64,000 bases of DNA from positions 47,076,342 to 47,140,341 of the forward strand of contig NC_133101.1 in NCBI RefSeq assembly GCF_022965805.1, in the 5' to 3' direction. The notes below the pieces were generated by a model, which searched no databases, was not told where the DNA came from, and saw only the letters and a list, made by a program, of their open reading frames with translations. This document shows positions 4,401-48,639 of this stretch, piece after piece (the stretch's first letter is position 1; every line of letters begins with the position of its first letter). A program made the translations under genes and the position numbers. The stretch comes from Primulina eburnea (lineage: Eukaryota; Streptophyta; Magnoliopsida; Lamiales; Gesneriaceae).

Positions 4401-4800
4401 ATAATTTGTGAATTTATTAGCCGGGTTGCGAAAACGTTCGTATTTTTGTTGAAAAACCAATACCGATAAAATTTACGTCCCGACGTATAAAATCATTGCA
4501 AAAACACCATATTTTCAAAAATAAGAAAAAGCATCACCCTTAATTTAAAAGAATTAAAAACAATTATTTAATAAAAACATTTTACAATTTTTCAGCCCTC
4601 GGTCTCCGTTCCTCGATCGCAACTAGAATATCCCTTAAAAATACATTTTAATGCAATCATGTAGAAAAATGTATTTTAAACATGCAATTATGTACCACAT
4701 AATCAACTAATGCAATTAAAACATTTAATTAAAATACAAAGGAATTTAATAATTGCATGCGTGTGGTTCGTGTGGACCTTCAAATTTTCGGAGCGTTACA
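1403..4800 (-). mobile_element. 5' LTR (3.4 kb) of LARD-like gypsy element
   Basis: The LTR runs TG(AAACCTCC)...(GCGTTA)CA on the plus strand. It is bounded on the left by the primer-binding site and on the right by an unrelated Tekay pol fragment. Related LTRs ('family L') recur at 36836-39440 (minus) and 41076-42904 (plus), recognised by shared blocks such as 'GATGGATCCATCTA' and 'ACTCAACACACC'. A GC-rich block (about 3000-3800) gives several spurious open frames that I do not regard as genes. Confidence 0.7.
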
Positions 4801-4942
4801 GTTATGCTGACAAGAGAAGAATAGATCTCGAGTTTGCCGCAGGTGATCACGTTTTTATAAAGATAGCACCTATGAAGGGTATTATGAGATTTGAGAAAAG
4901 AGGCAATCTTAGTCCGAGATTTATAGGACCATTCTAGATTCT
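4801..4942 (+). pseudogene. Tekay-type pol fragment (integrase C-terminal part), left piece
   Basis: The plus strand reads an integrase C-terminal segment of gypsy chromovirus type (ADKRR..LEF..GDHVFIKIAPMKG..RF..RGNLSPRFIGPF), with a stop near the end. It is cut on the left by the LARD LTR and on the right by the Athila insertion. The same protein resumes at 16282 after the Athila element, so this is one old pol gene split by two later insertions. Confidence 0.8.
4938..4942. repeat. Target-site duplication of Athila insertion, left copy (ATTCT)
   Basis: ATTCT immediately precedes the LTR and is repeated at 16282-16286 immediately after the other LTR. A 5-bp duplication is the usual Ty3/gypsy integrase footprint. 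Confidence 0.85.
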
Positions 4943-6493
4943 TGTTGCGACTCTGATTGTTGCCCTCCCAAGAGTAGGTTGTCCACAAGTAGTATAATTC
5001 GGTGAGTCTGATATCGTATCCACAGGGAAGCTAAGGTAATTACAAGTCCACTATAATGTCTTTTTGTTTTGTTTTTGTTTTTGTTTCTTTTTAATTTTAA
5101 TTGTTTGAATCTTTAATGAGTAAATTTTAATTGTTCAAATTTTAATTTAAGTAGTTGAGATTAAAGGATCCACTCTTGGTATTTTAATAAAGTTAACATT
5201 AACGAACAATATTGAAATCCAATTAATAAAATGGTTCCAATATATTAAATAATCATATTTATATTATGTTATATATTATTATCTTATAAGTATATAATAT
5301 ATACTAAAACTTAAATGTGGTCAAATATTTATTGTGCTATATATATTTGTAAACACTAAATCAAGATTCTCAGTTTAAATGTTTGATAAAACCAAACTAA
5401 CATTTAAATGTTACCAAGAAATTAATATTATGATATATTTATATATAGTAAATCAAGGTTTCCACTTTAAATGGTTGGTAAAACCAAATTAACATTTAAA
5501 TGGTACCAAGAAATTAATATTATAATATATTAATATATAATAAATCAAGGCATCCACTTTAAATGGTTGGTAATACCAAACTAACATTTAAATGGTTCCA
5601 AGAATTTAGTGTAACATATAGCAACAATAAATCAAAACTCCCACTTATAAGTAGGGTATAAAAATACTTAAAGAAATAAATAAAACATAAACAATAAATA
5701 TTGATTAAATAATATAAAACATAGATTATTACCTTTTAGTAACTTTATTATCATGCCAAGAGTTTCACCTTTTCTTCTCAACTTTAGGAAGTTAGCTATT
5801 CATTATTCAAAGTTTAAAACTTTGAATATGAAATTAACATGCTAATTATATTTAAATGAAGAAATAAAGGAAAAATATAGAGAGAAATATTATGAACTCA
5901 AAGGTTTGTTCATAGAATGAGGGATATCTCAATGCATTACAATGCACCCCTATTTATAGCCAAATTTGGGGAGACAACCACAAATAAAATATTATTTTTT
6001 TACACATTAGTCTTCATTGGTGTTCCAAGATATTACATTATATTACACATCACTTCTTTTTCACATAAAAGAAACATGTGGATAATTGAGTTGTCTAGTT
6101 GTGGTATTTTTTTCAAACCATTTGACCAAGTAATTTGAGAGATATGGTCAAAATACTAGAGCATGGTAAAACTGCCACTCCTTTGGTAACTTTATTTGTT
6201 GCTTAATTTGATACCAATTGTGAGAGGATTTTTATCTCATGCTTGCCATCAATATTGTAGATATTAACATCAACTTTCTACAGGTCCAAGAATCATCTTA
6301 ATCCCATTTGCAACGCCAAGTTTATTCTTGTTTTATCGAACCTGTAAAAAATAGTAAAAACTTGTAATTACACAACAACTTATATTTTATACAATTTATT
6401 ATAAAACATATAATATTAAAACATTTAATAAAACAAAAAATATATATGTATATTATAAAATATTTAATTAATGTACAATTTTTATGTTTATCA
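4943..6493 (-). mobile_element. 3' LTR of Athila element
   Basis: The LTR is TGTTGCGA...TTTATCA on the plus strand and matches 14703-16281 nearly throughout, with scattered substitutions and an indel of about 22 bases near 6050/15820. Within it (about 5350-5640) a unit of 90-100 bp beginning TAAATCAAG is repeated in tandem about four times. The minus-strand TATA box TATAAATA lies at 5951-5958. Confidence 0.9.
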
Positions 6494-6504
6494 CACCTCC
6501 CAAC
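6494..6504 (-). other. Polypurine tract of Athila element
   Basis: On the minus strand GTTGGGAGGTG directly precedes the LTR start TGATAAACAT. Its position next to the 3' LTR is that expected of the plus-strand DNA primer. Confidence 0.7.
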
Positions 6505-7698
6505 CAGCTTATTGCTAGTCCCTAGCAATTTAAGCGTTAATAGCAATACAAAACATATTGATTAATTTAAATAGAAATGTAATCAGAACTATCTAAGTGT
6601 TTAAATTAAATTTGAAAACCGTCAAATTTATATCAAGATCATCATAATTATAATTTATCAAATAATTTGAGATGATCAATTCAAAGCTTATTTCAGGTAG
6701 TTAAATGTACACGGCCTTCAGAAATTCCTAGTAAGAGTTTCAACTCCATATCCTCACAGGTTAATAAATGTTTCAATTTATGGCAACGATTTCTCTCATT
6801 GAGTTAGAATACAGATAAATGCTCAGAAAAATGGTTTACGGAATGCAGACAGACAAACGAGCCAAACTAATCAAAAGATAGATAATCCATTGATTCAAAA
6901 TCTAGTTGTTCTTATTATATATTTTTTTCCTGATATAATTTTTTTTTTCATAACATCATGGAATCAGACTAAGTTTATGCTTCTTGACCACATATTTATT
7001 TAATTTGTACAATAAATTTCTCTCTTTCTTTTTTTATTTTATTTTTTTTATGAGAGATATATGGGTCGTAGCATATAACTTAAAAATTACATACATCTTC
7101 AATATCTTTCTTTTTGTATTTTTCTTTTTTTTCAGGAAATATCAATTTTTTTTTCAAAATAAGAACTCAAGATCTAAACAATAGATAGTCTCTCTCATTA
7201 TCAATAAAGGCTCGAAAGCTATTTTCTCAGTCCTCTCCACTCACTCACAAAATATGTGTGAGTTTAAAATTTTAGGCACTCTTATAAGGTATATCTTGGG
7301 CCATATACTTTAATACATGATTTTATCACAATGGTTAATCACTCAAAAGGATTTCATAAATCATATTTTTATAGTGATTAGAATATAAAAATTGACTTTT
7401 TTTTACCAAATAAAAATTAAACATCCTTAGATAGATTAATACATTTTCTAATTTAAACCTTTCAAATATGTAATGTATGATATTTTTGCAAAAATTACAA
7501 AGATACAAACAATAAACATGATTTTATTATAAAATATATATAATTTTTTTAATTTTTTCTCCCCCCAATCAGAATATGACATTGTCCCTAATGTCAAAAT
7601 AACTATTAATAAATAGTACATAATAAAAGAGATATCACCTGGAATTTTATTGAAGATAACAAACCGAAACAAACGCAAACCAATCCACGACTTTTGAA
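6505..7698 (-). other. Non-coding 3' region of Athila element
   Basis: There are 1.2 kb between the stop of the LOG-like gene and the polypurine tract. The region is very AT-rich with long poly-T tracts (around 6920-7150 and 7550) and has no convincing reading frame. A second G-rich run on the minus strand (CCCCCC at about 7561 on the plus strand) could be an internal polypurine tract. Confidence 0.5.
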
Positions 7699-8336
7699 TC
7701 AATGATCCAACTTTCTTTTCTTACTGCTTGATTGCGACCAATTGATCTTTTTTATCATCGGATCAGGCTTATGAACAAAAGCTTCCAAATCATTAATTAA
7801 TTGGTCGACAGTCGAAGCACAGATGAGCATCCGTCGTGAATTTTCTGAAATGAAATTCTGTTCCACAGCTTTATCAAGAAATGTCAACAAACTGTCATAA
7901 TAAATATTGATATTCAACAAGCCCACAGGTTTATTATGGATATTAACTTGTGCCCAAGAAACAGTGTGAAAAATTTCTTCTAATGTACCAAAACCACCTG
8001 GTAGTGTGATAAAAACATCAGAATTTTCAATCATTTGAGTTATTCTTTCATACATAGAAGAAACTTTTAATTCCTCCCCAATCGTAACACATGTAATATT
8101 TCCTTCAGCTAAAGCTGTAGGAATAATACCCAAAATCTGACTACATCCAAGATGAGCAGATATTGAAACAGATCCCATTAACCCAATATTACCTCCCCCA
8201 TATACCAAGTGAATTTTCTCTCAGCCAATATCTTTCCAAGATTATTCGCTGCTTGTACAAACACTTCATTTTTTCCAGTACTCGACCCACAAAATACACA
8301 AATATTTTTCAATGTTTGTGTAGAGGATCTAGCCAT
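7699..8336 (-). pseudogene. LOG-like: Captured LOG-like cytokinin riboside 5'-monophosphate phosphoribohydrolase, one frameshift
   Basis: LOG enzymes release active cytokinin bases from their nucleotide forms in cytosol and nucleus. The frame from 8208 down to 7699 contains the family signature PGGFGTLEE, the preceding 'VYGGGNIGLMG' block, an arginine in the SMYER segment, and the conserved tail 'NKPVGLLN..YYDSLLTFLDKAV'. The N-terminal part (ATG at 8336-8334; NICVFCGSSTGK motif) is also present but in another frame; one missing base in an A-run near 8213-8220 explains the shift. Total length of about 212 codons matches plant LOG proteins. Plant LOG genes have several introns and this copy has none, so it came from an mRNA. 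The tail ends in a basic SSKKRKLDH, possibly a nuclear signal. It lies inside the Athila element in the same orientation. Confidence 0.9.
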
Positions 8337-8547
8337 GTTTTTACTTTCTTTTTTTCGGTCTGCGAAAATAGAGAGAAAGATAATAGATTTTATCAGGGTA
8401 ATATGTTATCATAACAAAACTATGGGTCACAGCTGTAAACAGAATAAATAGTAAAAACGATAATGACACACATGCATATAAACAGTAGTGTGATTGTGGC
8501 TCACAATTTTCCTCTGGTTTTACGTCCAGAAACGGCTTCAACGCCTT

Positions 8548-9093
8548 CTATGAGTCGAGGATATGCTTCCCATCCAATTTTCTTATAAATTGGCAAACAT
8601 GGTCTTTTTTAGTCGGATTCCCAAGACTATGACGCTCATCTTGGAATTGTTTCCATAAACGGAAAAGTTCAATATACACATGTCCACTAGAATGCGTCTC
8701 AAGAGTCAAAAAGATGTTATCTAAAGACTCCTTACTCAGCCCATTCTTAATGAAATCAATTTTATCTTCTCTGCTATTGGAAACACATCCCAAAGATCTG
8801 CATCGTTTGTCACAAGTCCATCTTGCACACTTATGACAAACCCCTAAACTTTTGGCCCTTCGTTTTTTCGAATAAGTACTTTTTCCTAATCTAGGAAAAT
8901 ACCGAATGAGCAATGATTGTGGAACTTCTCCTCCTAATCGGACCTTAGCTTCTATTACAAGACGAATATCTTCTGGAATTTCTTTTTGCATTAGAAATCT
9001 CAATCTTTCACACCTTCCTGCATAAATATTTCTTAGAACATTTTCAGAAACAGAGGGAAAATATTTACAAATTTTTGACATAATTTCATCCAT
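8548..9093 (-). CDS. Cysteine-rich basic protein, resembles carlavirus nucleic-acid-binding protein (tentative)
   Basis: This is an intact 181-codon frame with a true ATG, between Athila integrase and the LOG-like gene, in the same orientation as both. The middle holds a basic stretch (KSTYSKKRRAKSLG, residues 71-84) leading straight into CHKCARWTCDKRC and a fifth cysteine (Cys86, 89, 94, 98, 103), which could bind zinc. A basic run followed by G-x-C-x2-C is the hallmark I associate with the small cysteine-rich nucleic-acid-binding proteins of carlaviruses, whose reported roles are RNA-silencing suppression and transcription-factor-like activity. The N-terminal third (PQSLLIRYFPRLGKS) may be part of the same domain. 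The C-terminal third (residues 105-181) is unrecognised. It is not the usual Athila envelope-like protein. An unrelated zinc-binding cargo protein is the alternative. Confidence 0.5.
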   Translation of the reverse strand: MDEIMSKICKYFPSVSENVLRNIYAGRCERLRFLMQKEIPEDIRLVIEAKVRLGGEVPQSLLIRYFPRLGKSTYSKKRRAKSLGVCHKCARWTCDKRCRSLGCVSNSREDKIDFIKNGLSKESLDNIFLTLETHSSGHVYIELFRLWKQFQDERHSLGNPTKKDHVCQFIRKLDGKHILDS

Positions 9094-9263
9094 TTTGAAA
9101 AGAAAAGAAATGATTTTTTTTATTTTTGTATCACCAATTGTGGGAAACTGATTTAGCCGACTATGAGAGTCACGAAATACCGTTATCCTCCATTTAACCG
9201 GAAAATAAAAAGATTAAAGAAAACTGAAATAAAAACAAACAAAATTAAATGCAACATAAAAAT

Positions 9264-10602
9264 TTAAGGATCAGAAAGGGAAATAAACTCTTCTTGAAAG
9301 ATTTCATTTTCCAAAAATGGTTTAAGCCTTTGTTCATTCAATTTAAAAACATCACCATTTTTAGGATTTTCAATATCCACAGCTCCATAAGGATATACAT
9401 GCTTTACAACATATGGGCATGTCCATCTTGATCGTAATTTTCCTGGGAATATGTGAAGTCGAGAATTATAAAGCAAAACTTTTTTACCGATCTCAAAAGA
9501 TTTTCTAAGAATTGTTTTATCATGAAATGAATTGATTTTTGCTTTATAAATCTTTGAATTCTCATACGCGTCATTTCTGAGTTCATCAAGTTCATTAAGT
9601 TGCAATTTACGCAATTTTTGGGCATCATCCATGCTTGAATTTAAAGTTTTGATCGCCCAATAAGCTTTATGTTCCAATTCCACAGGCAAATGATAATGTT
9701 TTCCATAAATCAACCTATAGGGAGACATATTCAATGATGTTTTAAAAGCTGTTCGATATGCTCAAAGTGCATCACTAAGTCGCAGAGACCAATATTTTCT
9801 ATTTGAGTTAACAGTTTTTTCCAAAATTTTCTTTATCTCCCTATTAGCTAATTCAACTTGTCCATTTGTTTGAGGATGATAAGGAGTAGTTACTTTATGA
9901 GTAATACCATATTTTTTCATTAATGAAGCAAATGGTTTATTAACAAAGTGAGTTCCCCCATCACTTATCATGGCTCGAGAAATTCCAAATCTACTAAAAA
10001 TATTTTCTTTTAAAAATTGATGACGATTTTATGATCATTTGTTCGACATGGAATTGCCTCTATCCATTTGGAAACATAATCAACTACAACTAAAATATAC
10101 AATTATCCAAACGACGGTGGAAAAGGTCCCATAAAATCAATTCCCCAACAGTCAAAGATTTCAATTTCAATGATAGGATTCAAAGGCATCATGTTCTTTT
10201 TGAAATCGCACCCAATTTTTGACAATTTTCACAGATCTTGCAGATTTCGTGGGTGTCTTTAAACAAAGTGGGCCAATAAAATCCACATTGCAAGATTTTT
10301 GCAGCCGTTTTCTTTGAAGAAAAATGTCCTCCGCATGCTTCTGAATGACAAAATTTAATGACACTACTTACCTCATTGTTGGGTATGCAACGTCGAAAAA
10401 TTTGATCTGGACAATACTTGAACAGATACGGATCATCCCAATAAAAGTTTTTTACCTCATTCAAAAATTTTCTTTTATCTTGGGAACTCCATTGCGGTGG
10501 CATTTTTCCTGTCACAAGAAAATTTACTATGTTAGCAAACCAAGGTGTAGTAGTAACTGAAAATAGATGTTCACCAGGAAATTTATCGTTAATTGGTGTC
10601 AT
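9264..10602 (-). pseudogene. Athila integrase, broken into three frames
   Basis: The N-terminal zinc-binding part lies in 10189-10602 (HSEACGGHFSSKKTAAKIL followed by [12 protein letters not shown]). The catalytic core follows in 9762-9971 with the second aspartate in ISDGGTHF and the glutamate region [14 protein letters not shown]. The C-terminal part (9264-9734) begins at a conserved [10 protein letters not shown] block and includes [20 protein letters not shown]. Frame changes and stops separate the three blocks, so no full enzyme can be made. It inserts element cDNA into the genome. Between about 9972 and 10188 the sequence still resembles core integrase but is interrupted. Confidence 0.88.
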
Positions 10603-10688
10603 TTCACAAGATGATACTGTTACTAGTCTCGATAAATGATCGGCTACGACATTCTCGGTTCTTTTTTATCTTTGATCACAATGTCAAA

Positions 10689-11745
10689 TTATTGGAGCAA
10701 CAAAATCCGTCGTATCAGTCGTGGCTTTGCATCCTGTTTGGTCAACAAATATCTAATAGCAGAATGATCAGTAAACACAATAGTCGTTGATCCAATCAAA
10801 TAAGAACGAAATTTATCTAATGCAAATATTACAGCAAGTAGTTCTTTTTCAGTTGTGGAGTAATTCATTTGAGCATTGTTTAAAGTTCTACTTGCATAAT
10901 ATATAACACAAGGCTTACCGTTTCTTCTTTGACCCAATACTGCACCGACTGCATAATCACTCGCATCGCACATGATTTCAAATGGTAAAGACCAATCAGG
11001 AGGTTGCATGATAGGAGCTGATGTTAAATGTCGAATGATTTTATCAAAAGCATTTTGACATTCTTGAGTCCACTCAAATGCAGTGTCTTTTCTTAAGAGG
11101 TTACAAATGGGTTTAGAGATTAAACTAAATTCCTTTATAAACCTCCTATAAAATCCAGCATGTCCCAAAAATGAGCGAATTTCTTTAATGGTTTTTGGAG
11201 GGGTTAAATTGGCAATGACATCAACTTTTGCTTTATCAAATTCAATTCCATGAGATGACACGACATGTTCCAAAACAATTCCAGAAGTAATCATGTAATG
11301 ACATTTTTCCCAATTTAAAATAAGACTTTTTCCTCGCATCTTTTTAAAACTTTTTTAAATTTTCAAGACAATTATCAAATGTATTCCCAAAGACAGTTAA
11401 ATCATCCATGAAAATCTCCAAACAATTTTCAACCATGTCGCTAAAAATGCTTAGCATACATCTTTGAAATGTTGCTGGGGCATTGCATAATCCAAATGAC
11501 ATCCTTCTAAATGCAAATGTTCCAAAAGGACATGTGAATGTAGTTTTTTCTTGATCTTCGAGTGCAATGGGAATTTGATAATAACCTGAATATCCATCAA
11601 GAAAACAGTAGTATGGATGACCTGCTACTCTCTCTAAAATTTGATCCAAAAATGGTAACGAGAAATGATCTTTTCTAGTATCGTCATTTAATTTTCTGTA
11701 ATCAATACACATCCCCCAACTAGATGGGACTTGAATTGTTAACAA
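10689..11745 (-). pseudogene. Athila reverse transcriptase and RNase H
   Basis: 11344-11745 carries the RT fingers/palm: WGMCIDYRKLN, YCFLDGYSGYYQI and the catalytic FMDDLTVFG box (FMDD is the Athila form). A stop/frame change after LENLKKF separates this from 10689-11339, which holds the thumb ([12 protein letters not shown]) and the RNase H domain ([26 protein letters not shown]). The catalytic aspartates are retained in both blocks, so damage is mainly by indels. It sits between protease and integrase as in all gypsy elements. Confidence 0.9.
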
Positions 11746-11934
11746 TTCACCTTTTTAAATTTTTATCAATGTGATGTCAGATTTTTTTGGAACTACTTGT
11801 GTTGGGCTTACCCACTTACTATCAGAAATAGGGTAGATAATCCCAACATCAAGTAGTTTGAGAACTTCAGTTTTCACAACATCTTTCATGTGTGGATTTA
11901 ATCTCCTTCGTGGTTGTTGAGATGTTTTTGCATT

Positions 11935-12981
11935 TTATTCTAAGTGAATTTTGTGAGTGCAAATTATTGGATTAATGCCCTTGAGATCTTTTAGTGTCCA
12001 ACCAATTGCATTTTTATGTCTTTTAAGCATATCAACTAATTTACCTTCTTCATCACTTGCTAGTTTGGAAGAAATTACCACCGGATATGTTTCATCTTCT
12101 CCAAGAAATGCATACTTCAATTCTTCTGGCAAGGGTTTTAACTCCAATATTTGTGGTTCGTCTTTGTTCTCATATTTTGCATCAATTTCTTTCTCTGATC
12201 CTGGTAACGAGTGATACCTGATAAAATCATCAAGATCAATTTCAATATTTTCTTTAATAATTTCAATTGAACAAATATCTAATTGATCACGAGTACTCCC
12301 TTCTTGAATTTTTTCTTCCACAAGAGTTTCAATAATATTTTCATCTTCACTTTCATCTCCTTTGTCATGTGGTTGCTTACAAAGATTAAACACATTAAGC
12401 TCCAAGGTCGTGTTACCAAATGACAACTTCATTATTCAATTCCTGCAATTTATAAGAGCATTAGAAGTTGCTAAAAATGGACGACCTAAAATTACAGGAA
12501 TTTCATTACAAGCTTCGATAGGTTGTGTATCTAAAACTATGAAATCGACAGGATATACAAAGTTATCAACTTGGACCAATACGTCTTCTACCATACCTCT
12601 TGTCACTTTAACAGATCTATCGTCAAGTAAAAGTGTTACGGAAGTAGATTTTAACTCGCCTAGATTGAGTTCTTGATAAACTGAATATGGAAGTAAATTC
12701 ACACTAGCTCCAAGATCAAGCAAGGCTTTTTTAATCTTTCGTTCTCCAATAATACATGAAATAGTAGGACAACCAGGGTCTTTGTATTTCAAAGTATTAT
12801 TATTTTGAATGATTGCACTTACTTGTTCGGCTAAAAATGTTTTCTTTTTCATATTCAATTTTCTTTTCACAGTGCACAAGTCTTTCAAAAACTTGGCATA
12901 TGATGGTACCTGTTTTATTGCATCTAATAAAGGTATATTAACATTTACTTGTTTAAAAATATCATATATATAAGAATTCAA
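11935..12981 (-). pseudogene. Athila protease and protease-RT linker
   Basis: 12436-12981 has the retropepsin-like segment with active-site motif LLDLGASVNLLP (DLGA rather than DTGA or DSGA is usual in Athila), then TSVTLLLDDRSVKVTRGMVE and the ILGRPFLA block near the C-terminus. 11935-12432 is an acidic linker leading toward the RT. The two are separated by an in-frame stop just after NCRN, close to the end of the protease fold. Confidence 0.8.
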
Positions 12982-14506
12982 ATTTTATTTTTTTTGTATT
13001 TTTCAATGCATGAGGGAATGGTGGTGACACGGTCTGTTGAACCTCCTCTTCGCAAGTTATGGGTTCCACTTCCTTACCCTTTGGAGTTGATTTATAATCA
13101 TCTTCAGAAGGTTCAAGAATGGGTTTTTCAACAACCTTACCACTTCGAAGGGTAATAACAGATTTCACCTGATCCATCGGTTGAGTTCCAGAAGTTCCAG
13201 TTTGTGAATGATGATCCTTGGGATTAGGCAGAGGTTGTGAAGGAAATTTACCTTTTTCATGAACATTAAGTGCAGATGCAAATTTAGCAAGAGTATTTTT
13301 CAAATCTGTCATTGGTTGAGCAGTTTGAGTATTGATAGACTCTTGCTTTGCAATGAAAGAATTCAATAAATCTTCCAAATTCTTTTTAGGTGGAGGAACG
13401 TAAGGTGCATAATTTTGAAAATTTTGTTGATTTTGAAAATGTGGTTGCGGAAATTGTGTAGCATTATCATTCCTCCAACTAAAATTTGGATGATTTCGCC
13501 AACCTGGATTGTAATTTTGAGAAAATGGTTCAAAATTTGGCCTTTTGAAATTGTTCAAAACATTGGCTTGTTCATGGAGACATTCTTTAAAAGAGGGCAA
13601 AGTGGGACAATCTTTTGTAGAATGATCACTTGTATCACAGATGTGACATGCAATTTGTTGAACAGATTTTAATTGACCATTTTTTTCAATTCAAGTGCCT
13701 CAACTTTTCTTACCAAAGAAGTAAATCTGGCATGGAGATCATGTTCATCCTTGAGAGTGTACATACCTCCACCAGATGTGGGAGATTGAATCTTGTTTGA
13801 TGGTTCTTGTACCTATCGTGTCCCAATTTTGAGCATTTTCAGCTAATGAATCGAGATACTCAATTGCCTCGTTTGGATCTTTATCTTCAAATGTTCCATT
13901 ACACATAAATTCAACCATTTGCCTATCTTTAGGTGTTAAGCCTTCATAAAATTGAGAAACAACTCTCCAAATTTCAAAACCATGATGTGGACAAAGATTA
14001 AGCAATTCTTTGTATCTATCCCAATACTGATAAAAAGTTTCTCCTTGTTTTTGAGTGAAAGTGATGATTTTCCTTTTGAAAGAATTTGTTCTATGCGATG
14101 GAAAAAACTTTTTCAAAAATTGTTGCTGCAATTCATCCCAAGTTCGAATGGATCCCGATCTAAGATTTTGTAGCCAAGTTTTAGCTTTATCTTTTAAAGA
14201 AAAAGGAAAAAGCTTAAGTCGAATGGTGTTCATGCTACAATTTAGATCATTATATGTGTTGCACACTTCTTTAAACTCTCGTAAATTCATGTATGGATTT
14301 TCAGAATCTACGCCATGAAAGTTGGGTAAAAGTTGGATAATACCAGACTTAAAATTGAAATGAGATGCATCAGGGGGAAAAACTAGACATGAAGGTGCAC
14401 TAATACGTGTAGGATTCATGTGATCTCCTACGTGTTCTTCTTCTATCATGATCATGTTGAGATTGAATTTCATCTTCATTTTCTTGGATGGGTGTTCTTC
14501 CGCCAT
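12962..14506 (-). pseudogene. Athila Gag, two frames
   Basis: The likely start is the ATG at 14506 (MAEEHPSKK), although the frame is open further upstream. The first block (13745-14506) contains the retrotransposon Gag core with LKLFPFSLKDKAKTWLQNL and FLKKFFPSHRT. The second block contains a CCHC knuckle in 13600-13650 (CHICDTSDHSTKDC), then NYNPGWRNHPNFSWRN and VITLRSGKVVEKP, sequence marks common in Athila Gag. A frame change near 13745 separates the blocks. The protein would form the virus-like particle that packages element RNA. Confidence 0.88.
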
Positions 14507-14680
14507 GTTTTGTAAAAATAAAGGGTTATTTCGAATGAGTCGACCACTAAGTGTACGTGACCAAATGCTCATGCAAATGCAAATGCAAAAGAATAAAAAC
14601 ACACAAAAGCAATAAAAATTCAAATAAAGGAAAATAAACTATAAAGGAAATTAAATAGACTTGAAATTAAATTATACTTT

Positions 14681-14696
14681 CCCGGCAACGGCGCCA
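14681..14696 (-). other. Athila primer-binding site
   Basis: The minus strand reads TGGCGCCGTTGCCGGG, the primer-binding site characteristic of Athila elements, six bases inside the 5' LTR boundary at 14703. Confidence 0.9.
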
Positions 14697-14702
14697 AAAA
14701 CT

Positions 14703-16281
14703 TGTTGCGACTCTGATTGTTGCACTCCCAAGAGCAGGTTGTCCACAAGTAGTATAATTCGGTGAGTTCGATATTATATCCACAGGGAAGCTAAGGTAAT
14801 TACAAGCCCACTATAATGTCATTTTGTTTTGTTTTTGTTTTTGTTTCTTTTTAATTTTAATTGTTTGAATCTTTAATGAGTAAATTTTAATTGTTCAAAT
14901 TTTAATTTAAGTAGTTGAGATTAAAGGATCCACTCTTGGTATTTTAATAAAGTTAAAATTAATGAACAATATTGAAATCCACTTAATAAAATGGTTCCAA
15001 TATATTAAATAATCATATTTATATTATGTTATATATTATTATCTTATAAGTATATAATATATAGTAAAACTTATAAATGTGGTCAAGTATTTATTGTGCT
15101 ATATATATTTGTAAACACTAAATCAAGGTTTCCACTTTAAATGGTTGGTAAAACCAAACTAACATTTAAATTTTACCAAGAAATTAATATTATGATATAT
15201 TTATATATAGTAAATCAAGGTTCCCACTTTAAATGGTTGGTAAAACCAAACTAACATTTAAATGGTACCAAGAAATTAGTATTATAATATATTCATATAT
15301 AATAAATCAAGGCATCCACTTTAAATGGTTGGTAATACCAAACTAACATTTAAATGGTTCCAAGAATTTAGTGTAACATATAGCAACAATAAATCAAAAC
15401 TCCCACTTATAAGTAGGGTATAAAAATGCTTAAAGAAATAAATATAACATAAACAATAAATAATGATTAAATAATATAAAACATAGATTCTTACCTTTTA
15501 GTAACTTTATTATCATGCCAAGAGTTTCACCTTTTCATTTCAACTTTAGGAAGTTAGCTATTCATTATTCAAAGTTTAAAACTTTGAATATGAAATTAAT
15601 ATGCTAATTATATTTAAATGAAGAAATAAAGGAAAAATATAGAGAGAAATATTATGAACTCAAATGTTTGTTCATAGAATGAGGGATATCTCAATGCATT
15701 ACAATGCACCCCTATTTATAGCCAAATTTGGGGAGACAACCACAAATAAAATATTATTTTTTTACACATTAGTCTTCATTGGTGTTCCAAGATATTACAT
15801 TATATTACACATCACTTTTGAAAATCATCTTCTCCGAATTTGCTTCTTCACATAAAAAGAAACATGTGGATAATTGAGTTTTCTAGTTGTGGTATTTTTT
15901 TCAAACCATTTGACCAAGTAATTTGAGAGATATGGTCAAAATACTAGAGCATGGTAAAACTGCCACTCCTTTGGTAACTTTATTTGTTGCTTAATTTGAT
16001 CCCAATTGTGAGAGGATTTTTATCTCATGTTTTCCATCAATATTGTAGATATTAACATCAACTTTCTACAGGTCCAAGAATCATCTTAATCCCATTTGCA
16101 ACGCTATGTTTATTCTTGTTTTATCGAACCTGTAAAAAATAGTAAAAACTTGTAATTACACAACAACTTATATTTTATACAATTTATTATAAAACATATA
16201 ATATTTAAACATTTAATAAAACAAAAAATATATATTTATATTATAAACCATTTAATTAATGTACAATTTTTATGTTTATTA
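14703..16281 (-). mobile_element. 5' LTR of Athila element
   Basis: This LTR matches 4943-6493 and includes the same tandem 90-100 bp units (about 15117-15400). It ends TTTATTA, against TTTATCA in the other LTR, a single transition at the terminal dinucleotide region. The divergence between LTRs is visible but small, which indicates a moderately old insertion. Confidence 0.9.
15713..15720 (-). promoter_or_regulatory. TATA box of Athila 5' LTR
   Basis: The plus strand TATTTATA is TATAAATA on the minus strand, followed by GGGGTGCATTG. It lies in the middle of the LTR and would direct transcription of the element RNA leftward. Confidence 0.65.
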
Positions 16282-16286
16282 ATTCT
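16282..16286. repeat. Target-site duplication of Athila insertion, right copy (ATTCT)
   Basis: This is identical to 4938-4942. Removing one copy together with the Athila element rejoins the chromodomain-bearing pol gene in frame. Confidence 0.85.
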
Positions 16287-20687: not shown

Positions 20688-21055
20688 TTAATAATAATAA
20701 TAATAATATATTTTTATTCAATAATAATAATATTATTAATTTACTTAAAAGTCTTATTTTAGTAATCAAATTAAGTTTTAAGGTAACAAAAATTTTATAT
20801 GTAGTAAAAATATTTTGAAAAATATGAATTTATCTTGTAAATTGTTCATTTGTTTCTGTTTATTATATTTTTTTTATTAATTTTAAAATTTTATACACTT
20901 AATTAATTGTTAAAATTGTTAATATAAGAAATTAATATATTTGAAAATTATAATTACACACGTTTAAAAATCTAAATTTTAAATCTAAGTCATAACAATT
21001 TTTTGTATTAAATTTTGTTATGATTGTACACATTTTGTCATTTTTTTTTGTGCAG
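20272..21055 (+). other. Probable 5' leader intron of the MURA gene
   Basis: A strong donor (ACGTAC/GTAAGT at 20272) lies in the left inverted repeat. A good acceptor (pyrimidine tract, TGTGCAG at 21055) lies three bases before the MURA ATG at 21058. The intervening 0.8 kb is extremely AT-rich, includes a TA microsatellite (about 20643-20683) and has no gene. Confidence 0.6.
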
Positions 21056-21057
21056 AC

Positions 21058-22624
21058 ATGGATACTGTGAGAGGCATACTGTATGTAGGTGGCTATGTCA
21101 TTATTGAAGATGGTAGGGTTGGGTATAGTATCCCCGCGACAAGGCCCATTAAAATCTCTCGGTCTATTACATTTTCTCAATTGGTGAATTATGTGCATCG
21201 CAAGCTGGATATCGACCCATCAAAATTCTGCATCAAGTTGTCAACGAAATATTGTTATAGCTCGTTGGCTCGTTACACTGAAGATCATGTCTATATCACG
21301 GATGATGATAGTCTACAATTTATGTTTGATTTGCCGATACTGGATTGCATGTACTTGTATGTTGATTCATCTCCAGTGTTACAGAACGTAAGTGATTATG
21401 ATTTTGATGCAGTCATGCCAGTAATAACGCAAGGTTTGGGAACGGTAGGTTTGAATGAAGCGGGACCTTCTATGTATAACATCGATGAACAGTCAGGGCT
21501 TACATACTCTGGGATCGACACTGGTCCTTGGGATCACCATATCACGGCTGACACTGAAGAGGACTATGCATGGGGGATGAATACAACACGAGAATGAGAT
21601 TTTACTTCAAGAGGTTGGGATCATCATATCACGGGTCCATCAGGAGTTGATGTCGCATGGGGTTCTAGTAGAACATGTCAATTGGATGCAAATATTCCCG
21701 CCCCAATTACAGAACACATGCCTGAGCAAGATGATTTATTCGGGGACAGTTCGCATCATGTCATGAATAGAGATGATGATTTGTATGCTACATCAAGTGA
21801 CGGAGAAGATGATCATCATGTTGACAATGAAAATGAAGGGACATCGGCGCGTGTGTTAATGTCTGGAGCAACAATGACAGAGAACATTCCTATTGCACCG
21901 GAGCAACAGTTACGTGAAATTCCTCAATTTTTCAATGAAGTCTATCATGAACAAATTCCAGATTCATTTGGTATTCCTTCTGCATCCCGAACAAACTTTT
22001 ACAAACTTTCAATTTTGCTCTAATTTCAACAGCAGGTTCAAAAACATTCATTTAAAAGACTTATGTTGGGAAGCAGGGATACAACACCAAGTTGAAAAAT
22101 TTAATGCGACAATGGAGGCAATTAAAACAAATAATGCAGCAGCTTTCACGTATTTGTCCAACATTCCAAAAGAAAAATGGTCATTGGCTCATGATGGTGG
22201 ATGGCGCCGAGGGATAATGACGACGAACATGTCGGAGTGTATTAATGGTGTGTTGAAAGGGGCGCGACGTCTTGCAATAACTGCGATAGTCGAGATGAGC
22301 TTTCAGCGTTGCGTGCATTATTTCATTCAACGGCGAGCTCGAAGTGATAAGATGCTGGAAAAAAATCAACCATGGACCGACTATGCATACTCTAAATTTG
22401 ATATGTGGTCAAAAAAGTCAATTGAACATCGAGTTGTAAGATTTGACCAAAGGGATAAAACAGCATCTGTCGCGACAGGAGGAAGACCAGGTCGTCAACA
22501 TCACGTACAAGCTGTGAACATTTCTACGCGTGATTGCACCTGTGGTAAATTCAAAATATTTGGAATACCTTGTTCACATGTTACATGTTATATGTTCAGC
22601 GAAACAGTATTAAAAAGTCAATAA
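21058..22624 (+). pseudogene. MURA-type transposase, central catalytic region deleted
   Basis: The N-terminal block (21058-21597) has the small domain seen at the start of MuDR-type transposases. It ends at an in-frame TGA (21595-21597) after which the same frame continues (to 22023). A different frame from about 22024 carries the C-terminal region: FNSRFKNIHLKDLCWEAG, the MTTNMSECINGVLKGAR block and a SWIM zinc finger (CTCGKFKIFGIPCSHV). The DDE catalytic domain that should lie between LREIPQFFNEVYHEQ and FNSRF is absent, and the protein ends soon after SWIM. The transposase would bind the subterminal motifs and mobilise the element; this copy cannot. Confidence 0.85.
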
Positions 22625-22746
22625 TACAAAAATAGTTTACGAATGTCGCAAAAAATATGTTGCAGCAACAACTTGTAATTAAAATAAAAAAATTGCTAAA
22701 CATACAACAATACGATGTAAGTAATTGTGTATATCTAAATAAATAG

Positions 22747-24916
22747 TTAATGTCGATGGTAACGATGCCCCCCAGTGCCACACGGTGGTCTCCTGATTAC
22801 TCTACTTCCACGACCTAACATCTGTTCATCATCTCCATGAGTACTTGTTTGTCCTGCAGATGTACTGGTATCGGAAATGTTCCCACCAACCTCAAACCCT
22901 TCTGGATCAGAATATTGTGGAAATGGTATGGGCGACGGGTTAAAAGTAGGGCGACTCTCATTCATACCCGGTCGAAAGTCACTTTGTAGAAATTGTGTAA
23001 AACTACCAACAATTGGAGTGTAGTAACCAGCGTCATATGATAGAAAGCTTGAAACCACTGGCGGAGTAGTGTACGCCATATTTGAAGATGATGGTCCGGG
23101 TTCAAACTCATTTCATGTCCACATCGGTGGATATTGCACATGAGCTGGGCGTGCCTGTGACGTAGATGCATATGATATGTAACACATATTTAATACAACA
23201 AATTAAATTCCCGTACATATGTAGATAAATAAAACATTTCTTACGATAAATTGTCGGTAGTTTGCATCAACAGGATGATAGCCCATGATGTTCGAAGGTA
23301 CCACTGGCGGCGAGAGCACTATCTATGAAATGCGATAATACCAACCAATATAGTCCACTGTGATGGCGGGCATACCAGGGGTATGACATAGTGTCCACCA
23401 ATCACAAAATTATATCTATCATTCCACATTTGTACAAAATCCGCGTGATATGTCGCCCAATCGAAGTTGTTCCGCCCTTGTCGAGTCAGCTTATGGAAAT
23501 TGTCGAAGTTAGTAGCAGGTGGCGGAATACCCTGACGCATTCCGAACTGTCGGAGACACCGCTCTGGTCTATGCATCTCAACGATATGAAAATTAATCAA
23601 TGTGTATGCCGACCGACATAGATGAATGCTATTTTCATCCAGAATTCTGCCAACCTCCGGAGACTCCATATCATAAACTGTCCATAGAAACTGAAGCAAA
23701 TAAAATGAAAAAAAGATTAGCAATTTCATAATATATAAATAAGATTAAAATTGTAAAAAAATTTCAAACTCTAAACAAATAATTTATATATCTAGCTGCC
23801 ATTCTACCATCCTGTCAAGCATATCTCTCATTATACGGACCGAATGCTGGGCCGTGTGTGTCAAAGAAAATCCGCGTCTCCACCTGTAATTTAAAAAAGT
23901 ACACAATATTTTCATTTTAAAAAATAAGAAATAATAATATTAAATTTTAACTATTTTTTATTAGTACCGTGCGCCGTACGGTGGGAATGATAGTCCCTGC
24001 ATCACATCCGCAGCCTGCTCTTCTGAAATAGATACTTGTTCAGCTCTATCAGGGCAAAGAAGAATAATCCTAGACCACACCCAAATCTGCAATAACATAC
24101 AACAGAAATAGTCAAATCTTAAGAAAAAAAAGTACAAAAAACATAATGACCGTATAAATGTACAAATACCTGCAATATCTGAACTGGGCCACACAAATCG
24201 CCCTTCAAACTCATTGATGTGTCGCACAACTCTCTATAAAGATATGCCAACACAGAAGAACCCCAGCTGTACGTATTCACTAATTCTATGTGCTCAAGGA
24301 ACTGCAAATACATAAGTTTCACAGCAGCACCTTCCGAGTCCGGAAACATACATCCACCAATGATCATTAATGCAACACAACGAGAATATTGTGTCACCTC
24401 CTCTTCAGTGCTTTCGTCATTAACCATATTATTTAGGCAATGATCTAGCAAAGCGGTCAGATAAAGATGTGCACCTTTAATCTGAGAAGATGTGGGCGTA
24501 AAACCCAACCAGGTAGCGCAGCGCTGTTGTAAAGTATGTTTATTGTACGCGGTATCTACACCAGTGATGAGAATGCCATCAATATTCAACCCCCAAATAA
24601 TGGCAACGTCCTGCAGGGTGATTGTTGCCTCGCCCACGGTTAGGTGAAATGTGTGTGTCTCACGACGCCATCTCTCAACAATGGCTGTAACCAAATGATT
24701 ATCATAATATTTAATAGGACCACACTGAATGACACCATAGAAGCCCATGCGTGCAAGACATAGGCGGACACGGAGGTGAATACCAGCATTATGTAATCTC
24801 CAAAGACATTTGTCTGACCGGCGTGGCGAAATTATTGCATCCATATTTTCAGCGTTGATATTAGTTGATATGTGTCTATCCCGCAAATACAACATATTCT
24901 CCGTATTTTCAGCCAT
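22747..24916 (-). pseudogene. Plant mobile domain (MAIN/PP7-long-form-like) gene carried by the MULE
   Basis: Exon 1 (24170-24916) encodes the plant mobile domain start (LWRLHNAGIHLRVRLCLARM; TITLQDVAIIWGLNIDG). A GT donor and AG acceptor join it in frame to exon 2 (23968-24086; IWVWSRIILL..., FPPYGAR). A third exon from 23883 continues in frame (WRRGFSLTHTAQHSVRIM). Its expected donor at 23795 reads CT instead of GT. Exon 4 from 23690 (FLWTVYD, HRPERCLRQFG) has a frameshift near 23370. The last exon (22747 to about 23079) ends in a Gly/Arg/His-rich tail (RRPPCGTGGHRYHRH). Cellular relatives (MAIN, MAIL1) act in silencing and meristem maintenance; plant transposons often carry such genes. It looks recently inactivated. 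Confidence 0.82.
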
Positions 24917-24918
24917 CT

Positions 24919-25408
24919 TGCAAACAATAAATCATTAGTTAATAGTTATTTGTTATAAAATATATACATTAGCAATAGTTATTTATTATAAAAAATATAA
25001 CATGTAATTACAATAAATAAATTAGTAATACTTATTTATTATAATAAATACATTAGTAATAGTTATAAAACGTATACATTTATTGTAATTAAATTAAGTA
25101 TACTTATTATTATATAATTAATATTATAAGTATTTGAATAAAAAAATTACTTCATGGAATTAATATATAGGTATTAATGTTATACAATTAATATTTTAAT
25201 TATTCAGTATTAATATTTTAATACGTGATGCAATTAAAAATATAAGTAATAACAAAATTGCGTGAGTCAATTAATATTAATATATAAGTATTAAAATTAT
25301 ACAATATAAAAGTATTAATATATACGTATTAATATTATTTTATAATTATAAATATATAAGTATCAAAATAGTTATTATTATACAATTAATATATAATAAT
25401 TTAAATAA
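24919..25408. other. AT-rich interior of MULE left of the viral insertion
   Basis: This stretch is almost only A and T, with repeated ATTAATAT/TTATTATA patterns. It corresponds to the upstream part of the leader intron of the minus-strand mobile-domain gene, whose acceptor CAAG directly precedes the ATG (24917-24918). No gene is visible. Confidence 0.55.
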
Positions 25409-25454
25409 AGAGCCATGGAAATAGTCTGGTTAATAATTTAGCACTTTTATTCAA

Positions 25455-26510
25455 ATGAATACTTTCAGTATGAAAGAAACTGTTCATAACAGTTTAAATG
25501 AAGAATATGATTTACCTGAAAATTTAGATTTATTGAATAAATGGACTATTCCTAAGATAGAATCTAAAATGATCTATAAGTTAGGAACTTTTGAAAGAAT
25601 TGGTTTTAAACAAGTAGTTAAAACTACAGAATCATCTGTACCTCTTCATAATAATGAAATGGTTATAAGATTGTTAAACAATAAAGATATTATGTCTTAT
25701 ATGAAAAATTATAAATTTATTCATATAGGATTAATTCAAATTGCTTTTAGACCTTTAACATTAGAAGGTTTACCAGAAAGCTTTATAGCAGCTTTAAGAG
25801 ATGGTAGAAATTTAAATTGGAAACAATCCCTTATGGGAATAATTCAATCTAGTCTGGCACATGGTCCAGTATATTTTGATGTTTATCCAAATTTATCTTT
25901 ATCTTTGTTTGATCCAAATATATTAGACGCTTTAACATTAAAGGTTAAAACTCATGGTTATAATTATACTCCTGGAACAGAAATTATATGTATCTGTTAT
26001 CGTATTTATTATAAACCATTATTTACACTGAATCCTATGTGTAAAAAAATAGATAAAAAATTAAATGAAACTATTCTAATAGAAACTAATTTTAATAGAT
26101 CTAACATTACAACTCGTAGATCTATAAAATGGGAAGAAATAGAATTTCCAGAAAACTGGATAATTGAACAAGCTGTTCCTAGAAATTCTATAATAAATAG
26201 AAATTTAGAACAAGTCATACAAACTAATGAAGGAACTGTTCAAATACAGTTTAATAATGAACAAAGAAGATTATTACCCTCTTCTGTTTATGCTAGATCA
26301 AAATCTAGTCATTCTTTTATTTCTCCTCTAGATTATATGGTTGATATACCACAAACTTCTAGAGAATCTACTTCTCAAGTTAGAGAAGAATTAGAATCTA
26401 CTAATACAGTAGATGATTTAATTATAAATCAAAACAATATTGTTCATAAAAGTAACTTTCAAAAAGTTAGAGAAACTGATACAGTTTCAGAAATGAATTT
26501 TAGTATTTAA
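25455..26510 (+). CDS. Pararetrovirus movement protein (30K superfamily)
   Basis: This intact 351-codon frame has the conserved core of caulimovirid movement proteins at residues 95-175 (IHIGLIQIAFRPLT..GLPESF..ALRDGR, then HGPVYFDVYPNLSLSL). These proteins enlarge plasmodesmata to let virus pass between cells. The stop overlaps the next start as TAATG at 26508-26512, so the next ORF could be reached by reinitiation. The sequence is very A/T-rich like the rest of the virus. The start is the first ATG about 40 bases after the viral left end. Confidence 0.85.
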   Translation: MNTFSMKETVHNSLNEEYDLPENLDLLNKWTIPKIESKMIYKLGTFERIGFKQVVKTTESSVPLHNNEMVIRLLNNKDIMSYMKNYKFIHIGLIQIAFRPLTLEGLPESFIAALRDGRNLNWKQSLMGIIQSSLAHGPVYFDVYPNLSLSLFDPNILDALTLKVKTHGYNYTPGTEIICICYRIYYKPLFTLNPMCKKIDKKLNETILIETNFNRSNITTRRSIKWEEIEFPENWIIEQAVPRNSIINRNLEQVIQTNEGTVQIQFNNEQRRLLPSSVYARSKSSHSFISPLDYMVDIPQTSRESTSQVREELESTNTVDDLIINQNNIVHKSNFQKVRETDTVSEMNFSI

Positions 26511-29317: not shown

Positions 29318-30826
29318 ATTGAAAGAAAAACCTTTCAAATAAATTCTTTAAAAGAAGAAATAAAATTTCTTACAATTGATGAAAAATTACAGAATCCTAA
29401 ATTACAGGAAAAAATAAAAACTATTTATAATAAATTTTCATTAGAAATATGTAATGATTTACCAAATGCTTTTTTTGGAATCGTAAGAAGCATATTATTT
29501 CTCTTCCATATGAAGAGAATTTTGATGAGAGAAATATTCCTAGCAAGGCTCGTCCTTGTCAAATGAATTCTGAATATCTAGAATTATGTAAGAATGAAAT
29601 TCATTCTTTATTAGATAAAGGTTTAATAAAACCTTCTCAATCTCCTTGGTCATGTACTGCTTTCTATGTTAATAAACATTCTGAACAAGAAAGAGGTGTT
29701 CCAAGATTAGTAATAAATTATAAACTCCTTAATAAGGTTTTAAAATGGATTAGGCATCCTATTCCTAATAAAAAAAGATTTATTAGATAGATTAGTGCAT
29801 GCAATTATATTTTCAAAATTTGATTTAAAATCAGGATTTTGGCAGATTCAAGTAAAAGAATCTGATAGGTATAAAACTGCTTTTAATGTTCCTATAGGAC
29901 ATTATGAATGGACAGTAATGCCATTTGGCCTTAAAAATGCCCCTTCAGAATTTCAACAAATAATGAATGATATTTTTTATAACTATAGCAATTTTATAAT
30001 TGTTTATATAGATGATATCTTAGTGTTTTCCAATGATATTGAAACACATTTTAAACATTTAGAAATGTTTAAAAATATTGTTGTTCAAAATGGTCTTGTT
30101 ATTTCAAAATCTAAAATGATTTTATTTCAAACTAATATTAGATTTCTTGGTCATATGATTGAAAAAGGAAAAATAATTCCTATTCAAAGAAGTATTGAAT
30201 TTGGTTCAAAATTTCCTGATATAATTACTGATAAAACTCAGTTGCAAAGATTTTTAGGAATTTTAAATTATATTTCTCCTTATATTCAAAATCTTATTAA
30301 AGATTCTGCTATCTTATATGATAGACTGAAGAAAAATCCTTTACCTTGGACAGAAAAGCATACTAAAGCTGTTCAGATTATTAAAGATAAAGTTAAAAAT
30401 CTTCCTTGTCTTATGCTGGCAAATCCTTTATGGGATAAAATTGTAGAAACTGATGCCTCGGATATAGGTTTTGGAGGAATTTTAAAACAAAAAGATCCTC
30501 AAACAAAACAAGAATATCTTATAAGATTTTATTCTGGGAAGTGGAATAATGCTCAGAAAAATTACTCCACAGTAGCAAAAGAAATCTTAGCTATTGTTAG
30601 ATGTATTTTAAAATTTCAAGATGGTTTATATAATCAAAAGTTTATTATAAAAACTGACTGCAAATCTGCAAAATTTATGTTTAATAAAGATTTTAAACAT
30701 GATGTTTCTAAGCAAATGTTTGCTAGATGGCAGGCTCATTTAGCTCCTTTTGATTTTGAGATCATTTATAAAAAAGGTGAAGATAATCATCTACCAGATT
30801 TCTTAACTCGAGAATATTTATCTTAA
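29318..30826 (+). pseudogene. Pararetrovirus reverse transcriptase and RNase H, broken at its 5' end
   Basis: After the TAG at 29317 the sequence stays coding-like, but a frame change lies near 29480 and a second one in an A-run near 29770. The main intact block (29795-30826) carries the RT palm with YIDDILVFS, the connection region, and an RNase H domain (ETDASDIGFGGIL; IKTDCKSAKFM). It ends at TAA overlapping the next ATG (TAATG, 30824-30828). The enzyme would copy pregenomic RNA into DNA. Catalytic aspartates are present, so inactivation is by the upstream breaks. Confidence 0.88.
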
Positions 30827-42904: not shown

Positions 42905-43191
42905 GTTTATATCAGAGCAAAGGATCCCTAAAGGTTGTGTTACTGTCACTCGGAGATGATCAAGAACTCACGCATCAAGTCTGTGAGTTTTTTATGCTTT
43001 AGATTTTATATGTTAAACTTTAATCGCTTTTATGATAAATGATATAGAGATTAGATGCATGTTTTAATTAAAATGTTAAATGCATTTTGGTTACGTTGAC
43101 GGGTTCTTTGTAGTGATAATAAGGATAGCCAGAGGAGGAGATTCTACAGACTCCACTTAATCATGATTCTAGTGCCCGTGTACTAGCCGGT

Positions 43192-43437
43192 ATGGCTCGT
43201 TTACTAGAGCAGCACATGGGACATGGTGCGAAGGTCCGACTGCAAGCTGTCTATGAGCGATTTATGAGAATGGATCCCGCGGATTTTTCTAGAACTAATG
43301 ATCCATTCGTGGCTGAGGGATGTATTAGATCTTTAGAGGTGATCTTTAAGTATATGGATATGGTGGACACTGACCGAGTTCATTGTACTATCTATCTGCT
43401 GAAAGACGACGCTTCTTATGGTGGGAGGGAGCAGAGT
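43192..43437 (+). pseudogene. Truncated gypsy Gag fragment (unit A)
   Basis: The N-terminal part of a Tekay-type Gag (YERFMRMDPADFSRTNDPFV; GCIRSLEVIFKYMDM) is cut at 43437, where an inverted Tekay LTR begins (TGTAATGTACTGTAC). It matches the equivalent part of the Gag at 57270-57420. Confidence 0.75.
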
Positions 43438-46711: not shown

Positions 46712-46957
46712 ATGGCTCGTTTACTAGAGCAGCACATGGGACATGGTGCGAAGGTCCGACTGCAAGCTGTCTATGAGCGATTTATGAGAATGGATCCCGC
46801 GGATTTTTCTAGAACTAATGATCCATTCGTGGCTGAGGGATGTATTAGATCTTTAGAGGTGATCTTTAAGTATATGGATATGGTGGACACTGACCGAGTT
46901 CATTGTACTATCTATCTGCTGAAAGGCGACGCTTCTTATGGTGGGACGGAGCAGAGT
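46712..46957 (+). pseudogene. Truncated gypsy Gag fragment (unit B)
   Basis: This is the duplicate of the fragment at 43192-43437 with two substitutions near its end (GGCGAC for GACGAC, GGGACGG for GGGAGGG). It is likewise cut by the inverted Tekay LTR at 46958. Confidence 0.75.
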
Positions 46958-48630: not shown

Positions 48631-48639
48631 ACACATTTT

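Follow-up and report, generated by a model that had tools for sequence, protein, structure and literature searches.

The function of extra genes in plant retrotransposons is an old question, and most of these genes have no known relatives. The closest described systems are plant Ty3/gypsy elements that carry a LOG-domain ORF. A LOG (YgdH) domain occurs in LTR-element consensuses of Citrus sinensis and C. clementina and, when no filter is applied, of Populus (P. trichocarpa), a finding that the available part of the paper describes as agreeing with Steinbauerova 2011 (PMC9289625). A LOG gene in such an element is therefore of a known kind. A Phalaenopsis Ty3/gypsy element with an AlkB m6A demethylase offers a second parallel, as both it and the element described here keep a captured host enzyme as an extra ORF and counter-defence has been proposed for both; the Phalaenopsis enzyme is a different one with activity shown in vitro, whereas LOG is known here from sequence and a model (PMC9289625, available part).

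Other properties of the present locus go beyond these accounts. The Citrus/Populus report shares with it the LOG-domain ORF in a plant Ty3/gypsy element, but its available text contains no nucleic-acid-binding protein (NABP) neighbor, changed pocket, EAR-type tail, LOG selection, or LOG mobility (PMC9289625). Likewise, LOG goes unmentioned in the available parts of two surveys of extra ORFs, where the phrase "silencing suppressor" (PMC7264820) and the word "suppressor" (PMC6317226) are also absent. Among the matches listed in the open-access literature, there is no report of NABP or PF01623/PF05515 together with retrotransposons, nor of LOG with EAR and retrotransposons. The NABP-LOG pairing, the lost pocket residues, and the EAR-type tail thus appear to be unreported among those matches.

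The window, a stretch of 64,000 nucleotides of Primulina eburnea, holds an Athila-type element with the following features.

4938..4942, no strand: target-site duplication ATTCT, left copy
4943-16281, minus strand: Athila-type Ty3/gypsy element, one element flanked by the 5-bp ATTCT duplication
4943..6493, minus strand: 3' LTR, 1551 nt, TGATAAAC...GTCGCAACA in element sense
6494..6505, minus strand: polypurine tract adjoining the 3' LTR, GGTTGGGAGGTG in element sense
7699..8336, minus strand: LOG-type phosphoribohydrolase gene, intronless, ATG at 8336, stop 7701-7699
8360..8382, minus strand: splice-acceptor-like site before LOG, TTTCTCTCTATTTTCGCAG; first exon base 8359, 23 nt ahead of the LOG ATG
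8548..9093, minus strand: carlavirus-type NABP gene, 181 aa, frame intact, between integrase and LOG
9224..9246, minus strand: splice-acceptor-like site before NABP, TTTTTATTTCAG; first exon base 9223, 130 nt ahead of the NABP ATG
9264..10665, minus strand: integrase in three broken pieces (zinc-binding H2C2 10192-10665; core 9765-10028; C-terminal part 9267-9761)
10689..11754, minus strand: reverse transcriptase and RNase H, two pieces (PF00078, PF17919, PF17917)
12436..12984, minus strand: aspartic protease (PF13650)
13745..14638, minus strand: gag (PF03732, 2.7e-23)
14681..14696, minus strand: primer-binding site, TGGCGCCGTTGCCGGG, resembling the 3' end of tRNA-Asp
14703..16281, minus strand: 5' LTR
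16282..16286, no strand: target-site duplication ATTCT, right copy

The gag-protease-RT-RNaseH-integrase order between LTRs is present, as are TG...CA ends, the 5-bp duplication, and extra coding-strand ORFs between integrase and the 3' LTR. The 5' LTR of the window copy departs from the TG...CA pattern in that it starts TA. The original prediction had bounded the element by ATTCT duplications, and both the duplications and the LTR pair are found at the coordinates above. Joining the flanks at one ATTCT gives a single unbroken frame with one TAG codon, the integrase end of another element. The LTR pair differs by a K2P distance of 0.0283 over 1548 columns, with ends placed a few bases off. The integrase core scores slightly below the Pfam cut-off, and the C-terminal part has no credible Pfam match and is homologous to the long integrase frame of a related element, L001. 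Domain order, primer site, and 3' ORFs fit the label Athila, a probable assignment made from these features. Steinbauerova 2011 reportedly places the LOG ORF in Athila and names LOGL4.

As had been predicted, the LOG gene is intronless and on the coding strand between integrase and the 3' LTR; the polypurine tract also lies downstream of it. The predicted motifs PGGFGTLEE, VYGGGNIGLMG, and NKPVGLLN are all found in the minus-strand translation of 7702-8220. The gene matches Pfam PF03641 (E 1.5e-33), and among solved structures Arabidopsis LOG3 (2a33) is the closest to it in sequence. The encoded protein ends in KKRKLDH, without an LxLxL tail. The frame shifts once, between 8196 and 8220, so the gene is not intact here; with the LOG frame broken and pol in fragments, the window copy is dead. 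The original prediction had further placed LOG in the slot of the usual envelope-like ORF. LOG does lie there, but the slot holds two genes, and the virus-type NABP adjoining integrase had been overlooked.

Copies of both genes are abundant in the 812-Mb genome of the same plant. The LOG query gave 1331 first-look candidates, and all 150 that were scored match at 91-100% identity, 148 of them free of a stop in the matched stretch; a single-copy origin, named beforehand as fatal to the prediction, is excluded by these matches. The NABP query gave 1417 candidates, with 150 of 150 scored matching at 90-100% and 147 lacking a stop. Loci were fetched from each list, 30 picked by LOG and 30 by NABP, the window copy included in both. 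Among the LOG-picked loci, 29 have the LTR end, 28 the polypurine tract region, and 27 the integrase end; a full 212-aa LOG ORF is present in 28 (all but the window copy and L009), and NABP is 181 aa long in 22. LOG lies downstream of NABP on the same strand in 30/30 NABP-picked loci and is a full 212-aa ORF in 20 of them. At one of these loci, L049, the element's own LOG is broken and the full LOG upstream is a neighbor's, counted under L042. The tblastn check that had been proposed thus finds many LOG copies between integrase and LTR. These directly observed pairs replace an early hint of linkage from the LOG and NABP lists, which shared four same-source contig-length coincidences, three of them >2 kb against 0.1 expected.

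Two of these loci form a cluster on C15 of the same genome. L042 and L049 (~11.054-11.061 Mb) contain three NABP matches in 7 kb, and LOG copies flank NABP on both sides in two loci of the cluster, a tandem of element 3' ends.

The family has moved recently, and LOG and NABP moved with it. Ten other copies were fetched with both LTRs, chosen non-randomly from the best LOG matches. All ten have perfect 5-bp duplications that differ from one another and from that of the window copy. Their LTR pairs lie at K2P 0-0.007, two being identical over 1570 columns and one being compared over 440 columns only. The genome also harbors a second LOG subfamily, represented by 80 of the 150 rows scored (82-100% to P0005, a P. 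eburnea sequence found there at 100%). Both of its stretches that were examined have the integrase-NABP-LOG order, with the NABP frame broken in one (L083).

The pairing is not obligatory, because L001, the related element, has NABP without LOG in the next 980 bases. This locus (DAIEQH010000041.1, 3330 bases), the sole one from a scan of genome contigs, contains integrase and NABP; no LOG was found in the 980 bases after NABP with the window LOG and seven others, five element-type and two host, as queries (E 0.01). LOG may have joined an NABP that was already in place; alternatively, L001 may have lost it. The contig is filed under a Candidatus Nomurabacteria MAG, yet its content is a plant-type retrotransposon, a case of contamination in a public genome record.

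We propose, with moderate confidence, that this Athila-type family carries NABP and LOG as a counter-defence module in the env slot. The 3' slot would hold NABP followed by LOG, with a splice-acceptor-like site ahead of each gene, and both would be expressed from spliced RNA in the manner of retroviral env and accessory genes. NABP, a putative nuclear or cytoplasmic nucleic-acid binder, would dampen RNA silencing directed at the element, an activity that its carlavirus and mandarivirus relatives have. LOG would be a captured plant enzyme in which the phosphoribohydrolase residues are kept, the base/prenyl pocket is reshaped, and a basic tail is present, followed in most relatives by an EAR motif. 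Probably nuclear, it might act on another nucleotide or serve as a docking platform for TOPLESS-type corepressors, and the two proteins together would help the element multiply. If so, endogenous plant elements keep virus-like accessory genes, and a hormone-activating enzyme has been put to another use. Recognizable relatives, linkage, recent mobility in many copies, and measurable selection make the function of both genes directly testable.

The positions of the acceptor-like sites fit env-like spliced messages. Sites were defined by CAG, preceding 14 bases without AG, and at least 14 pyrimidines in 18, a threshold set after looking. Only two sites on the element coding strand reach this quality, each before one extra gene. 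Both strands of the window contain 35 in 128 kb, so two in 11 kb is no more than chance, and their positions alone are telling. Upstream of LOG, TTTCGCAG is found in the five commonest upstream strings, which represent 18 of 28 full copies, and by eye an acceptor-like TTTCTCTGCAG lies near the matching place in L001.

The viral likeness of NABP comes from two curated Pfam families, PF01623 and PF05515, both matched with modest scores that lie above their gathering thresholds (Carla_C4, 28.0 bits against 20.9; Viral_NABP, 23.6 bits against 23). There are 219 NABP relatives at E <= 0.001, and precomputed annotation assigns PF01623 to all of the best 120 of these, which form our NABP set. Of 23 aligned members, 19 reach E <= 0.001 with the first viral family and 18 with the second; 4 and 5, respectively, miss. 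Conservation covers a basic stretch, four cysteines, and a C-terminal part beyond the viral match. The predicted structure is poor (pLDDT 56) and unfit for structure search. No NABP or LOG relatives were found in IMG/VR viral contigs, and tblastn of NABP against plasmids gave no match.

The families matched by NABP are those of the cysteine-rich proteins CVB p12 and CYVCV CRP, which likewise combine a basic stretch with a four-cysteine finger. According to the available parts of the reports, the mandarivirus CRP (PMC12172455) and CVB p12 (PMC7588395) are both suppressors of RNA silencing, with nuclear signals or a role in the nucleus. Unlike these proteins, the element NABP is retrotransposon-borne, 181 aa long, linked to LOG, and extended by the long conserved C-terminal part. 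NABP might be an old Athila 3' protein later taken up by flexiviruses, or its basic stretch and four-cysteine finger might be a convergent likeness; the large plant family of ~180-aa proteins, with conservation outside the viral match, and the occurrence of NABP without LOG in L001 agree with a non-viral origin. Scores above threshold for two curated viral families argue the other way, and we regard a non-viral origin as a serious possibility that falls short of an even chance. A strawberry Ty3 family (FRESCO) is said to carry a flexivirus-type silencing suppressor, which, if right, would be a precedent for the NABP half of the proposed module.

For LOG, element-type sequences (the best 120 of 4021 matches) were compared with host LOGs (the best 120 of 8000 scored with a LOG3/LOG8 profile, so that LOG2/5/6/7/9 types are hardly represented); counts out of 120 below refer to these sets. 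Arg99 and Glu122 are catalytic in LOG, and Met96, His97, Lys100, Glu125, and Trp129 form the prenyl site (C. glutamicum LOG numbering; PMC4979012, available part). The catalytic pair is mostly kept in element-type LOGs (Arg99 in 113/120, Glu122 in 119/120), as are Trp129 (119/120), Met96 (112/120), and most of the PGGxGTxxE motif. His97 is kept in 42/120, and Lys100 and Glu125 are kept in one and changed in 119. In host LOGs, by comparison, each named residue is kept in 119 or 120 sequences, and Lys100 and Glu125 in 120/120. The prenyl/adenine pocket Met96-His97-Lys100-Glu125-Trp129, expected of a LOG acting on cytokinin nucleotides, is thus altered in the element type. PF03641, the PGGxGTxxE motif, and the fold are found for the window piece together with one relative, P0003. 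The P0003 model (pLDDT 89) has a LOG fold with a disordered tail, and its best match is Arabidopsis LOG3, 2a33 (Foldseek E 1.2e-24, TM 0.92 to target), with which the element LOGs share fold, catalytic Arg and Glu, and PGGxGTxxE.

Element-type LOGs also have an added tail. A basic stretch near the C-terminus is present in 115/120 element-type (best 120 of 4021) and 1/120 host LOGs (best 120 of 8000). LxLxL occurs within the last 12 residues in 106/120 of the former and 0/120 of the latter, and shuffled tails give 23 on average. All but one of these 106 have [DN]LxLxL at the very end. LxLxL EAR motifs bind TOPLESS (PMC10942257, available part). LxLxL is missing from the window subfamily and its closest relatives, which retain the basic stretch. 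The full copies listed for the window subfamily end in KKRKLDH, so EAR docking cannot be the function in that subfamily. Compared with plant LONELY GUY enzymes, then, the element LOG has Lys100, Glu125, and often His97 changed, bears a basic tail and mostly LxLxL, and is intronless and multicopy.

These features bear on the function that had been predicted, namely that LOG is an ordinary cytokinin-activating enzyme through which the element raises cytokinin and cell division in the tissue where it multiplies. As stated, this is unsupported: Lys100 and Glu125, invariant in the host set, are changed in all but one of the 120 element-type LOGs, and His97 is lost from the majority. We consider the cytokinin reading unlikely, although it keeps some probability because the catalytic pair is mostly intact, and the retained PGGxGTxxE motif, the LOG fold, and the maintenance of the protein by selection also agree with it. 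The two lost pocket residues and the EAR-type tail make a counter-defence pair the likelier explanation. The broadest form of the counter-defence reading would extend across eudicots: an Athila lineage with NABP as a silencing damper and an ex-cytokinin LOG whose remade pocket and EAR tail would dock or titrate TOPLESS in the nucleus. A plant transposon would then have assembled accessory genes like those of retroviruses and RNA viruses, one of them through conversion of a hormone enzyme into a transcriptional or chromatin effector. This extension is tentative and, on balance, doubtful.

The tree with host LOG genes that the original prediction had called for separates element LOGs from the sampled host LOGs. 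It comprises 29 LOGs of the element type, 26 from hosts, and 2 from bacteria. Of these, 28 were picked by hand from the element-type set of 120 and 26 from the host set of 120, the latter a narrow sample. The element type forms one clade with support of 98/91, the bootstrap not having settled. The clade contains a Populus protein. The 120 LOGs are element genes in Primulina and probably elsewhere, as suggested by the clade, by clusters with multiple copies, and by the Citrus and Populus cases in print; some "LOG-like" genes in plant annotations are thus likely to be element genes. Parsimony places 8 changes of the EAR tail on a quick tree of 113 element-type LOGs, 10 host LOGs, and the window piece, from which seven shorter LOGs were left out. 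We read this, short of proof, as a single gain that was probably followed by several losses.

Two further observations concern individual species. P0107 from Xanthoceras sorbifolium combines a host-type pocket, with Lys and Glu, with a basic tail that lacks LxLxL, and it is sister to all other sampled element-type LOGs; it is possibly a link between the host gene and the element gene. Of the LOG clusters listed (best 120 of 4021), 28 carry the name Reevesia pubescens; they are spread over many chromosomes and represent another amplified family, in Malvaceae.

LOG is clearly under purifying selection, and NABP less strongly so. The dN/dS check had been part of the original prediction, and both the ratio within the family and the ratio between subfamilies are low. 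Full LOGs of the NABP-picked loci (16 distinct) have a pN/pS of 0.37, with 23 synonymous and 33 nonsynonymous distinct single changes, counted from the commonest observed copy, against a neutral expectation of 78% nonsynonymous (P 0.0009, one-sided). In the LOG-picked set the ratio is 0.24, but there it is biased by the choice of loci. Between subfamilies, LOG of L006 and L031 compared with L082 has dN 0.24-0.25, dS 1.17-1.28, and dN/dS 0.19-0.21 over 209 codons. NABP in the LOG-picked loci (21 copies, 11 distinct) has a pN/pS of 0.34, from 8 synonymous and 12 nonsynonymous distinct changes (P 0.046). The comparison of the window copy with L001 gives ratios of 0.30 for NABP and 0.19 for the integrase end.

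Selection also bears on whether LOG could be inert cargo, copied since it lies between the LTRs. The window copy is decaying, with pN/pS against other copies of 0.66 for LOG and 1.02 for NABP, as expected of a dead copy, and LOG falls short of a full ORF in 10 of the 30 NABP-picked loci. Against neutrality stand the selection figures, the intact LOG in 28/30 LOG-picked and 20/30 NABP-picked loci, and the correlation of site variability between element and host LOGs (Spearman 0.44 over 211 columns). Neutral cargo holds for the window copy and is largely refuted for the family, for which we judge it very improbable.

That one processed host-LOG pseudogene landed in one dead Athila copy has next to no probability, for although LOG is intronless and flanked by an 11-nt direct repeat, the copy number, the same gene order in many copies, linkage to NABP, and distinct target duplications rule out a single accident or an insertion of LOG on its own, and a flanking repeat of at least that length occurs at 6% of random places. 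The 11-nt repeat is the longest direct repeat flanking LOG, and no target duplication of its own was seen there; nor was a poly-A tail seen next to LOG, as runs of six and seven A residues first occur ~140 nt past the LOG stop. Capture of an mRNA into the element by template switching, as originally suggested, is consistent with these findings. With a host LOG (P0359) as query against the same genome, all 150 scored places were single-frame matches with 51-53% identity, and many of them coincided with element-LOG coordinates.

The remainder of the window holds other mobile sequences. Repeats at 1-182 and 4619-4800, 96% identical and ending GCGTTACA, bracket a 4.4-kb stretch beside the integrase hit by the Athila element; this stretch probably represents another insertion nested in that integrase-bearing element. 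By eye, a MULE transposase-like ORF (20989-22624, plus strand) and a plant-mobile-domain-like ORF (24119-24931, minus strand) occupy the region 20989-24931. Four ORFs at 25437-32229 on the plus strand, also assigned by eye, follow a caulimovirid-like order of 357, 937 (with a CCHC knuckle), 360 (RT/RNase H), and 480 aa, and the set looks like an endogenous pararetrovirus. Farther along, a stretch of ~3.52 kb at 41627-48700 is apparently doubled in tandem, the blocks 41627-42077 and 45143-45597 being in register and 98-99% alike. A long Copia integrase/RT frame of 839 aa, again recognized by eye, follows on the plus strand at 48762-51281.
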